Shown here in pieces: positions 11,354-14,849 of a stretch of DNA of 64,000 bases. A program made the translations under genes and the position numbers. Below the pieces are notes generated by a model. It worked only from the letters and a program-made list of their open reading frames with translations, was not told the origin of the DNA and did no database searches. Position 1 is the first letter of the stretch. The number at the start of each line of letters is the position of its first letter. Source of the DNA: Kocuria sp. (GTDB taxonomy: Bacteria; Actinomycetota; Actinomycetes; Actinomycetales; Micrococcaceae); assembly GCF_030538595.1 (NCBI RefSeq), contig NZ_JAUNTS010000006.1, positions 1-64,000 on the forward strand, read 5' to 3'.

Positions 11354-13231
11354 TCACCCGATCTGGGAGGCGTCCCACAAGGCTGCATAGCGGCCTCCAC
11401 ACCGCAGGAGTTGATCGTGAGTGCCGTCCTCAACCACCCGGCCACGGTCCATCACCAGAATGCGGTCACACACGCTGGCCTGCACCAACCGATGAGCGAT
11501 CACCACGCTGGTGCGGCCACGACTCAGCCCGGCAACAGCCTCTCCCAACTCGGCAGCCTCATGTTCGGAGACCCTGGAGCTGGGCTCGTCCAAGATGACG
11601 ACGGCGGGGTCCAACACCGCCGCCCGGGCCAGTGCCAACTGCTGCGAGCGATGTTCAGCCACCATGGGCGAACCCGCCTCCAGCGTGGTATCAAGTCCAT
11701 CGGGAAGTTCACGGGCCCACTCACCGAGCCCCACCAGCTGTAGGGCTTCCCACAACTGCTCATCGGAGCACCCGGGTCTGCCCAGGTCCAAGTTGCCGCG
11801 CAAGGTGGTTGAGAAGACATGGCCCTCCTGGGCGATCAGTGCCACCCGACGGGCACGATCCGCTGCGGGAAGTTCATGCAGGAGTTCCATTCCGGTTTGG
11901 GTACTCCCCGTGAGTCCCGGCCCCACTTCGACAGTGCCGGTCAAAGGGTCTCGGACACCGGCGGCTACCGCCGCCACGGTGGTCTTGCCTGCACCTGATG
12001 CTCCTACCAATGCCAATGAGGTGCCAGCAGGCACGGTGAAACTGACGTCGTGCACCACTGCCTGGTCTCCATAACCGGCCCGCAACCCGGTGACGCGTAG
12101 CTCCGAACCACCCGTGCGGGTGTCAGCGAGGCCCGCTTCTGCAGCACCATCGACGACGACCGAAGTCCTCACGTTGCCCGCGTTTGCGGTACTTCCCATC
12201 ATGCCCACGATGCGACTCAACGAAGTGGCCGCAGACTGAAGCTTGTCCAGCATCATCAAGGCCGTGCCAATGGGATCGTACAAGCGCATGAAGAACAGGA
12301 TCGCCGCCGTCGCAGCCCCCAACGTCACAGCTCCTTGGCCCAGAAGCACCAGAGTGGTTCCCAGCAAGGCCACCATTCCCAAGAACTCAGCCAGATTGAC
12401 ACCGGCGAAAAGCCGAGTGGTCGCGATCTGAGTCAACACAATCATGCGCGCCACCACCCATGAAGGGCGCACCAGACGAGTTCGCATGAATCCAGCGGCG
12501 TCGTAGGTACGGATTTGGGTAGAGCCCTTGACGACGTCGAGCACCACCCCGGCACGACGTGCCCGCTGGCTGCGTTCCGTTGCGTATAGCGGCGGCGCCT
12601 CACGCAAATAGCGTCTCACCACGAACCCGTAGACCGGGACGGTAACAACCATCAAGGACACGGCATACGACCAGTGGATGGCGACCATTCCCACGGCAGT
12701 CACCAAGATTCCCGTGACGGCAGCCACCGCAGACGGCAGGGCCGTGTTAATCGCGGAGGTGACTGCGGCGACGTCGTCGGTGGAGCGGGAGACGACTTCC
12801 CCGGACCCTGCCGCCTCCGCTTCCTCCTGCCCCCGGCTCAGGGCAGCGGCCATCGTGTCCTCGCGCAGGGAGGCGATCACACGATCGGCAACACCTGCGG
12901 ACCAAACCGTACCGACGGCGTTGAGCGATGCGCCTAAGATCACAGACCCCAGCAGGACCGCCACAGCCCAGATCAGTCCACCGTTCCCGATCAACCAATG
13001 AGCCCCACCCTGACCCGTGCCCAAATCAACGAATGCTCCCAATACCGAGGGCAGCACCAGCCCGCAGCCAGCCGAGGCCAACAGGGCCAGCACCGCACCG
13101 GTGGTACGCCAGGGGTAACGGGCAGCCTTGCGTCCGAGGGCGCGCAGGACTTGGCCGCCGCTGGCCCAAGGAATCGCAGCGGACCCGTGGGTTGCAGCCC
13201 TCGGAGGATTCTGCACGGTGTCACGCCCCAC
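11354..13231 (-). CDS. ABC exporter-fold half transporter with degenerate signature motif
   Basis: This 625-residue protein has an N-terminal six-helix membrane domain (about residues 25-330) and a C-terminal nucleotide-binding domain. The Walker A GASGAGKTT, the Q loop (LIAQEGHVF), the Walker B VVILDEP and the switch His (VIAHRL) are intact. The LSGGQ signature is replaced by AEHRSQ, and the D loop SALD by SRVS. The start overlaps the upstream ABC gene by 11 nt, so the two surely form a heterodimer. The neighbouring SIP gene recalls mycobacterial IrtA/IrtB, where an exporter-fold pair imports ferric siderophore. Export of the product is the other possibility. Confidence 0.88.
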   Translation of the reverse strand: MGRDTVQNPPRAATHGSAAIPWASGGQVLRALGRKAARYPWRTTGAVLALLASAGCGLVLPSVLGAFVDLGTGQGGAHWLIGNGGLIWAVAVLLGSVILGASLNAVGTVWSAGVADRVIASLREDTMAAALSRGQEEAEAAGSGEVVSRSTDDVAAVTSAINTALPSAVAAVTGILVTAVGMVAIHWSYAVSLMVVTVPVYGFVVRRYLREAPPLYATERSQRARRAGVVLDVVKGSTQIRTYDAAGFMRTRLVRPSWVVARMIVLTQIATTRLFAGVNLAEFLGMVALLGTTLVLLGQGAVTLGAATAAILFFMRLYDPIGTALMMLDKLQSAATSLSRIVGMMGSTANAGNVRTSVVVDGAAEAGLADTRTGGSELRVTGLRAGYGDQAVVHDVSFTVPAGTSLALVGASGAGKTTVAAVAAGVRDPLTGTVEVGPGLTGSTQTGMELLHELPAADRARRVALIAQEGHVFSTTLRGNLDLGRPGCSDEQLWEALQLVGLGEWARELPDGLDTTLEAGSPMVAEHRSQQLALARAAVLDPAVVILDEPSSRVSEHEAAELGEAVAGLSRGRTSVVIAHRLVQASVCDRILVMDRGRVVEDGTHDQLLRCGGRYAALWDASQIG

Positions 13232-14849
13232 GATGTCCTCCTACGTTTTGGGTGGAGCCAACACTGAGCTCATCGAGGTCCCGGTCCCCGATCCTCAGGT
13301 GTTGATCGGCGATTTCGCGCCACACAGACGATGAGGTGAACACCAGCGTGCTCTGGCCTCGTCGGTGGTTTCTGATCCCTTGGGCCACAGCAACCTCGGT
13401 CACGGTATCCAGAGCCGATGTAGGTTCGTCCAAGACCAGAACCTGGGGGTTGGCCGCCAAGGCACGCGCCACGGCCACACGTTGCCGCTGGCCACCCGAT
13501 AGTTCCCCTCCGGCCTCACCTACGGTCACACCTTCTCCCGCCGGATGTTCCTCCAGGAAATCGGTACACGCTGCCGCCTTCAACGCACCGGCGATGTCTT
13601 CAGCCGCAACCCGGTCGAAGCCCACGTTCTCAGCCACATCCCCGTTGAGCAGGAAATCCTGTCCCGATCCGACCAACCATCCGTTCGGTTGTCCGTGGAT
13701 CGTGTGCTCGCGCAGACCGTCGAGCAGTGTTTTCTTGATCTCGGAGGAAACCTCCACCATCACGAGCTCACCAGCCCGGGGTGCCTCCACCGCTTGCCAC
13801 CAGGCCGCCGAAGGGGCAGTGCATGGGCTCGGCGGGGATTGGAGGACATCCAGCACACGCGCAGCCGATGCCAGCCCTGTTGCCCACACCACGCCCACGT
13901 TGCGTCCTAATACGGACATGGGTTCCACCAGCATCTGTGCGATGGCAACTACCACCACCAACTCCCCTACACTGAGCCGTCCGGCCATGGTTTGTTGAAT
14001 CGCCAGCACCGCCGTGGCAACCACAAACAGTCCACCGGCGATGTGAGTCAGCGCCCCCAATTGGGCGCGGGCAACGTTGGATCGCAAGGCTGCTGCAAGG
14101 GCATTCCGGGAGGCCAGGCGGTAGCGTCGTCCGGCCTCCGCGCCCGCACCCAGGCCCGCAACCACCCGCAGTCCGGAGAGATGGTCGACGGCGACGTCGG
14201 CAGCGGTGCCAGCCTGGTACTGAGCCTGCCGTTGCCGCACCGCTAACGGGCTGGCCAAACGGTCGGCCACTAACGCGGTGATCGCAGCCCCAAGGAGAAT
14301 GCCAACGCCCAAGGGCCACCACACCCAGATCAGGACACCGCCTCCGACCACGACCGCTGCAATCTCTCCGATGGGTAGAAAGGCCAGCAGCTTGGTCATG
14401 GACACCGCTTCGGTATCCGTACCGGCAACCGTCAAAAGGTCTCCGGCAGATCGTCGATCTGCCCCCATGCCACGGCGGTCCGTGATCCGGTCCGTGACCA
14501 TCATGCGCAGTTCATGCTGGACAAAGCTGGCGGCGCTGTGTCCCAAGCGTGCACCGAACCGATACGCGGTGGACAACAGCAAGAAAGCAAGACCAAGTAT
14601 GACCACCGCCCACACGGTGCCTGGTACATCGCCCGCTGCCAAGGGACCGTCGATAGCCCGCCCCACGATCAAGGGCACCAGAATTTCACCGATCTGGTGA
14701 GCTACAGCCAGAACCGCTGCCCCCAATGTCATCCAGGGACGTGACTTGATCACCTGCCAGATCAAACCGACCGGTGTGGTGTCGGCACCAACGCTCAGGG
14801 TGCTGCGGCCATCTTCTGTGTCCGGTGGAGTCAGTAAGGCACGCACCAA
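13221..14849 (-). CDS. ABC exporter-fold half transporter with degenerate Walker A
   Basis: This 542-residue protein has a six-helix membrane domain (about residues 30-310) and a shortened nucleotide-binding domain. The Walker A glycines are lost: where GxSGSGKST is expected the sequence is EVSSEIKKT. The span to the Q loop is short, and the switch His is replaced by Ser (LVFTSSSVW). LSGGQRQRVAVARA, the Walker B LVLDEPTSALD and the D loop are perfect. These defects complement those of the next gene. The start is TTG 14849 with GGAGG about 10 nt upstream, at the end of the SIP gene. The lesions match those of a catalytically one-sided heterodimer rather than a pseudogene. Confidence 0.87.
   Translation of the reverse strand: MVRALLTPPDTEDGRSTLSVGADTTPVGLIWQVIKSRPWMTLGAAVLAVAHQIGEILVPLIVGRAIDGPLAAGDVPGTVWAVVILGLAFLLLSTAYRFGARLGHSAASFVQHELRMMVTDRITDRRGMGADRRSAGDLLTVAGTDTEAVSMTKLLAFLPIGEIAAVVVGGGVLIWVWWPLGVGILLGAAITALVADRLASPLAVRQRQAQYQAGTAADVAVDHLSGLRVVAGLGAGAEAGRRYRLASRNALAAALRSNVARAQLGALTHIAGGLFVVATAVLAIQQTMAGRLSVGELVVVVAIAQMLVEPMSVLGRNVGVVWATGLASAARVLDVLQSPPSPCTAPSAAWWQAVEAPRAGELVMVEVSSEIKKTLLDGLREHTIHGQPNGWLVGSGQDFLLNGDVAENVGFDRVAAEDIAGALKAAACTDFLEEHPAGEGVTVGEAGGELSGGQRQRVAVARALAANPQVLVLDEPTSALDTVTEVAVAQGIRNHRRGQSTLVFTSSSVWREIADQHLRIGDRDLDELSVGSTQNVGGHRGA

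Follow-up and report, generated by a model that had tools for sequence, protein, structure and literature searches.

How does an ATP-binding cassette (ABC) exporter run when one of its two chains has no Walker A motif (P-loop)? The question is raised by two overlapping genes in a stretch of 64,000 nucleotides from Kocuria sp. (contig NZ_JAUNTS010000006.1, positions 1 to 64,000), hereafter the window. Both genes lie on the minus strand, in the order B then A, and their open reading frames (ORFs) overlap by 11 bases, given the listed start codons. The B subunit gene (13221–14849) encodes 542 aa, with an exporter-fold transmembrane domain (TMD) and a shortened nucleotide-binding domain (NBD) that carries LSGGQ and a D-loop. 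The A subunit gene (11354–13231) encodes 625 aa, with an exporter-fold TMD and an NBD that lacks LSGGQ. Pfam matched PF00664 and PF00005 in both, as expected of two exporter-fold half-transporters encoded together. A sequence-only reading of the window had described the pair as carrying complementary lesions, and both its coordinates and its motifs were verified.

Motif reading shows what each chain has kept. Chain A has an A-loop, an intact Walker A (GASGAGKT, 11981–12004), a Q-loop (IAQEGHVF), a Walker B with the catalytic Glu (VVILDEP, 11582–11602) and a switch His (IAHRL, 11486–11500). In its signature position stands AEHRSQQ (11639–11659), and at the D-loop (SALD) position SSRVS (11567–11581), all on the minus strand; apart from the A-loop, the sequence-only reading had listed these features and substitutions. 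Chain B, as that reading also had it, retains an intact signature (LSGGQRQR, 13479–13502, minus strand), Walker B (VLVLDEP) and SALD. The pattern GxxGxGK[ST] is absent from B, where EVSSEIKKT (13728–13754, minus strand), placed by alignment at about the Walker A position, is not a recognisable P-loop, and Thr/Ser stands at the switch His position. Each ABC ATP site is formed by Walker A of one chain and the signature of the other. Because of this pairing, exactly one predicted composite site, A Walker A with B LSGGQ, is intact (the live site), and the opposite, dead site is destroyed on both faces. This claim of the earlier reading holds, and the lesions proved to be conserved together in 57 B-type and 50 A-type proteins.

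The Walker A glycines and the switch His had rightly been called lost from B, although the extent of the loss was understated, as the whole stretch between A-loop and Q-loop has shrunk considerably. By alignment and motif reading, the B NBD has no A-loop and no P-loop, it lacks the Q-loop Gln and the switch His, and Pfam ABC_tran covers only model positions 86–137 of 137, the last third. In B a span of 120 residues lies between TMD end and LSGGQ, versus 164–203 in generic exporters (27 distinct sequences, median 166), which leaves window B 46 residues below the generic median.

We surveyed 396 genomes of the phylum Actinomycetota with a profile of seven B proteins. Outside the window this gave 38 matches at or above 283 bits, all retrieved, and one fragment at 261 bits, a lower bound; together with the window's own they come from at least 28 genomes. 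Three candidates were scored per genome; one genome proved to have a fourth B, and another a third. With order-level relatives the set comprised 47 B and 42 A rows. To these were added another genus with four TetA-like loci, four named pairs on plasmids and more loci of g36, a genus with large genomes, which gives the final totals of 57 B and 50 A. Walker A is present in none of the 57 B-type proteins, all of them from Actinomycetota, so that no homologue restores the normal motif; SGGQ-QR is retained in 56, the exception being a decayed copy in the congener G025. Conversely, all 50 A-type proteins retain Walker A, and the catalytic DE and switch His are both seen in 49, the remaining one running off its contig. 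SGGQ at the signature position occurs in none of the 49 readable A-type proteins, whose usual form is L-x-x-x-Q-A-Q-Q. The A-loop Tyr is conserved in 42 of 42 A rows. In the B column of the Walker A Lys, 37 of 47 rows have Ala, and the three that have Lys have it outside any P-loop. The evidence for conservation is good: by alignment the A and B lesions are conserved together, and the putative class is spread across Actinomycetota rather than peculiar to the window pair. The original description, of lesions in one pair, was thus correct for the window and incomplete. Searching the genome contigs with the B query gave three short NBD matches only, none a relative of the pair.

Ordinary exporters do not share this pattern. 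At the 20 next-ranked loci below the family, the LSGGQ chain has Walker A in every case. In the full control set, which also drew on generic exporters found beside family loci, Walker A is present in 27/27 distinct generic SGG[QE] chains and in 14/14 distinct degenerate partners. Those partners are of the mild, known kind (SAG[EQ] in 14/14), and among the SGG[QE] chains 11 of the 26 that are readable carry Asp in place of the catalytic Glu. Where this was examined, B could be told from generic chains by scoring higher on the B profile than on the A profile. At four g36 loci (L103, L104, L107 and L140), the P-loop-less pair directly adjoins an ordinary asymmetric exporter pair.

Trees built without the Walker A and signature columns, and also from TMD columns only, show B and A each as monophyletic with support 1.0. 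B groups with the generic SGG[QE] chains (support 0.986) and A with the generic degenerate partners (0.94), and these groupings persist after named members are added (0.987 and 0.926). The trees included three duplicate control sequences, and one broken frame of the congener G011 was left out. These groupings are explained most simply by a single loss of the P-loop in an ordinary asymmetric pair. Paired B and A distances correlate at r = 0.977 over 41 pairs, a value equalled in 0 of 2000 permutations, to which shared species history contributes. Two B genes without an adjacent A each have one about 11 kb away. In two genomes examined closely (150 of about 250 candidates scored each), the B and A numbers match, with 4 of each in one genome and 3 of each in the other, where the third B came to light on reading the region. 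B proteins of Rhodococcus and Tsukamurella retain more of the region after the P-loop than do window B, TetA and the B chain of locus L133, and the NBD has perhaps shrunk further, more than once, in the window's clade.

We consider it likely that A and B are obligate partners in a heterodimeric ABC exporter powered by one composite ATP site, and that the pair here exports the apo-siderophore of the surrounding gene cluster, under iron control. A would bind ATP through its A-loop, Walker A, Q-loop, Walker B Glu and switch His, and B would close over it with LSGGQ and the D-loop. The opposite site, with no P-loop from B and no signature from A, should bind no nucleotide because both of its faces are lost. 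There the NBDs would be joined by protein contacts instead of the non-hydrolysed ATP of ordinary degenerate sites, and neither A nor B should be able to form a live homodimer. On balance, and with less assurance, we also favour a wider view in which the pair represents an old exporter class across Actinomycetota, using one ATP in each cycle and keeping its second interface free of nucleotide. Its ATP glue would have been discarded once and replaced by protein contacts, the complementary lesions would lock the obligate heterodimer, and the useless half-domain would still be being pared in the window's clade.

The neighbouring genes suggest the substrate. Lying 4 bases upstream of B, on the same strand, is a gene for a siderophore-interacting protein (SIP; 14854–16761, Pfam) with a C-terminal O-methyltransferase-type dimerisation domain (PF08100); near-full-length matches to this SIP occur in the congeners G004, G005, G024 and G025. 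Also on the minus strand follow a lysine/ornithine N-monooxygenase for hydroxamate formation (16842–18194), an AMP-binding enzyme, presumed to be an aryl acid ligase (18255–19883), and an isochorismatase-domain protein (19876–20532). A palindrome (20571–20589) that resembles a DtxR/IdeR iron box lies upstream of this run, which thus reads isochorismatase, AMP-binding ligase, N-monooxygenase, SIP, B and A, and of a divergent gene for a chorismate-binding enzyme, presumably an isochorismate synthase (20685–21908, plus strand). A second such palindrome (37983–38001) stands upstream of a 4833 aa siderophore nonribosomal peptide synthetase (23465–37966, minus strand; the ORF was identified as such by eye). 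The pattern finds just these two sites in the window, each on both strands, versus 0.03 matches expected; a shorter pattern with five spacer bases has no match in the window. The cluster further holds a periplasmic-binding-protein-type (iron-siderophore) binding protein (22328–23377, minus strand) and a separate ferric-siderophore importer (8317–11344, plus strand) made up of FecCD permeases (8317–9351 and 9351–10436) and an ATPase (10454–11344). It also includes a 4'-phosphopantetheinyl transferase (PPTase; 7476–8273, minus strand, Pfam) and a short-chain dehydrogenase/reductase (SDR; 38317–39192, by eye), and a bacterial-like (truncated) globin (4668–5282, Pfam) is encoded near it. This gene content fits a mixed catechol/hydroxamate siderophore.

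Across the family, the D-loop Asp of A is lost at 18 and kept at 23 of 41 readable loci, one further locus being unreadable. Homologues of the window's siderophore genes lie nearby at 12/18 Asp-lost loci versus 0/23 Asp-kept loci (Fisher p 2e-6), in a comparison that is uncorrected for relatedness, takes its queries from the window and counts the window and two congeners among the 18. This places the window in the branch that shows siderophore linkage. Relatives in Rhodococcus and Tsukamurella likewise sit inside isochorismate-type siderophore clusters.

Other explanations must be set against this one. That the lesion is local, with B decaying or carrying a sequencing frameshift in this genome, is scarcely credible. 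Decayed copies in two congeners and a poorly conserved B linker region (27% and 37% identity) speak for it, but homologues refute it, with Walker A gone in all 57 B while SGGQ-QR is kept in 56. The B frame is open, with no stop and no frame change required, and the congener homologues in G004 (67%) and G005 (60%) have a similarly shortened NBD. In the B membrane domain, nonsynonymous and synonymous divergence (dN and dS) are 0.17 and 1.56 against G004 and 0.27 and 1.46 against G005; over part of the B NBD no dS could be calculated, and the comparison is that of the membrane domain. Because the frame is open, the congeners are similarly shortened and TMD dN is well below dS, a frameshift, including one around Walker A, or a pseudogene is excluded for B. 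Within the genus, the B search was positive in 6 of 27 genomes (E <= 1e-20), of which the window's own (G000), G004, G005 and G024 carry pairs. In G025, B is truncated and continues into the frame of the adjacent PPTase, and no A reaches a family-level score (L033, 8084–9644); in G011, B is a fragment and the frame of A is broken (L035, 9855–14516), the FecCD frames being interrupted as well. In both, the exporter pair is broken while neighbouring siderophore genes persist, which may reflect loss of secretion or assembly errors.

A different objection grants that the pair is genuine and takes it for an ordinary degenerate-site heterodimer, whose dead site holds ATP as stationary glue in a noncanonical pocket. 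A and B do group with generic asymmetric pairs, and described degenerate sites retain ATP in the available text of two sources (PMC7756269, PMC12038006); even so, we judge this improbable, as B no longer has its A-loop, Walker A, Q-loop Gln or switch His, nor A its signature, each being lost or substituted, and B is short by the 46 residues noted above. Still less probable is a pair that no longer uses ATP for transport and keeps its remaining site for regulation. Nothing direct speaks for it, and 49–50 of 50 A still have the live-site Walker A, catalytic Glu and switch His. The strongest rival, though in our view still unlikely, turns the direction around and has the pair import ferric siderophore in the manner of IrtAB or YbtPQ. 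It draws on the SIP gene directly upstream of B and on IrtAB being a solved exporter-fold importer, as given in the accessible part of PMC10246721. The same source describes two nucleotide sites in IrtAB, the cluster already has a FecCD importer and a binding protein, and the closest functionally described relative, TetAB, is an efflux pump. Export of the apo-siderophore is likelier than import for the window pair because a FecCD importer is already present.

Several observations nevertheless weigh against single-site siderophore export or against the reach of the survey. AlphaFold on the window A and B proteins gave a low-confidence model (mean pLDDT 37, pTM 0.27), and the decayed pairs in G025 and G011 indicate that the pair is dispensable. 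At 29 of the 41 loci, the stretch retrieved showed nothing homologous to the FecCD, monooxygenase, SIP or binding-protein genes of the window, and family membership alone is therefore no sign of a siderophore role. The profile search scored at most three candidates a genome, which makes its counts lower bounds. It was built from P-loop-less proteins and hence favours them, and matches were inspected down to about 244 bits when TetA itself scores only 249, a value at which divergent family members could hide among generic chains.

A literature search found no described family whose degenerate site wholly lacks the P-loop, nor a P-loop-less bacterial heterodimer; it covered subscription journals thinly, so that the result is "not found" rather than "not in print". 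The human ABCB5 short isoform is said to lack Walker A. A transporter class bears the name "Drug/Siderophore Exporter-3" in the available text of PMC3924187. In the portion available of a review mostly of human and other described transporters, degenerate-site ATP is treated as a stationary hub or stable hinge (PMC7756269). A natural family without the P-loop, one that includes a reported drug exporter, makes the need for ATP in a degenerate ABC site directly testable. The public records seen label the B chain an ATP-binding protein, and B is probably no ATP binder. The P-loop-less pair may also mark exporters of siderophores and other natural products.

Comparison with known systems places the pair more closely. 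The sequence-only reading had called it IrtAB-like, which is not supported. IrtAB of Mycobacterium tuberculosis is likewise an exporter-fold heterodimer linked to siderophores, and in what is available of PMC10246721 it binds ATP at both composite sites, carries a siderophore-interaction domain on IrtA and imports. Its SIP domain is thus fused to IrtA, whereas the window SIP is a separate gene beside a separate FecCD importer, and IrtAB has two nucleotide-competent sites where the window pair, by motif, has one. IrtAB identity was rejected on ATP sites and SIP layout, the nearest named relatives being TetAB and the Rhodococcus and Tsukamurella pairs. In a PDB search, IrtA and IrtB score below generic exporters. 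The solved chains that score best on the B profile are full-length P-glycoproteins, with up to 308 bits over both halves, and half-transporters, of which MsbA scores 225. On the A profile they are ABCB proteins of plants and animals, with up to 490 bits over both halves, and half-transporters, of which TM_0288 scores 345. None of the solved chains returned by these searches is named as a family member, and score alone does not separate them, as TetA scores 249 and TetB 336 on the family profiles.

The TetA model NF000506 matches window B over nearly its entire length (58–506 of 513), and this match led to TetAB of the Corynebacterium striatum plasmid pTP10 (NC_004939.1; NF000506 and NF000103), in which both lesions recur. 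TetA (513 aa) lacks Walker A, has a shortened NBD and retains LSGGQRQR, like window B; TetB has Walker A and DEATAEAG and no LSGGQ, like window A. Window B scores 86–88 bits versus an NCBIfam TetA cut-off of 1025 and is a relative rather than TetA itself. In the trees, TetA and window B share a clade of 10 members (support 1.0 and 0.98), and TetB joins the clade of window A. One resistance caller labels TetA of pTP10 (L137, 2608–4149) a major facilitator pump and another an ABC subunit; the sequence matches the B profile and carries no P-loop. Corynebacterium glutamicum matches the TetA(AB) model at E <= 1e-40, below the model cut-off, and probably holds a TetA relative. TetAB is described as a tetracycline/beta-lactam efflux transporter in the available text of PMC8304765. 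Because TetA and TetB carry both lesions, the one-site layout occurs in a pump reported to work, although TetAB is a drug export system on a resistance plasmid, unlike the window pair with its surrounding siderophore genes and iron boxes. The pairs on Rhodococcus sp. 2G plasmid p1 and Tsukamurella tyrosinosolvens plasmid 26 share the lesions and much of the window's neighbourhood, namely isochorismate synthase, isochorismatase, SDR, AMP-binding protein and SIP, with a SidA-type monooxygenase as well in Tsukamurella. They are annotated just as "ABC transporter ATP-binding protein".

Pdr5 and ABCG5/G8, which are of a different transporter type, resemble the window pair in having several motifs of one site altered, including Walker A. 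One consensus and one impaired site is also the layout of MsRv1273c/72c, TM287/288, BmrCD and TmrAB, and in the trees A and B cluster with generic pairs built in this way. BmrCD and TmrAB retain Walker A. In what is available of PMC7756269, Pdr5 (Lys to Cys) and ABCG5/G8 (Lys to Arg) have single changes in an otherwise present P-loop, and the TM287/288 model keeps ATP bound in the degenerate site. The impaired site of MsRv1273c/72c binds ATP through its Walker A in the available text of PMC12038006. The window pair is best described as a variant of these degenerate-site heterodimeric exporters: the signature is lost in one partner, as in them, yet Walker A is not present on both chains.

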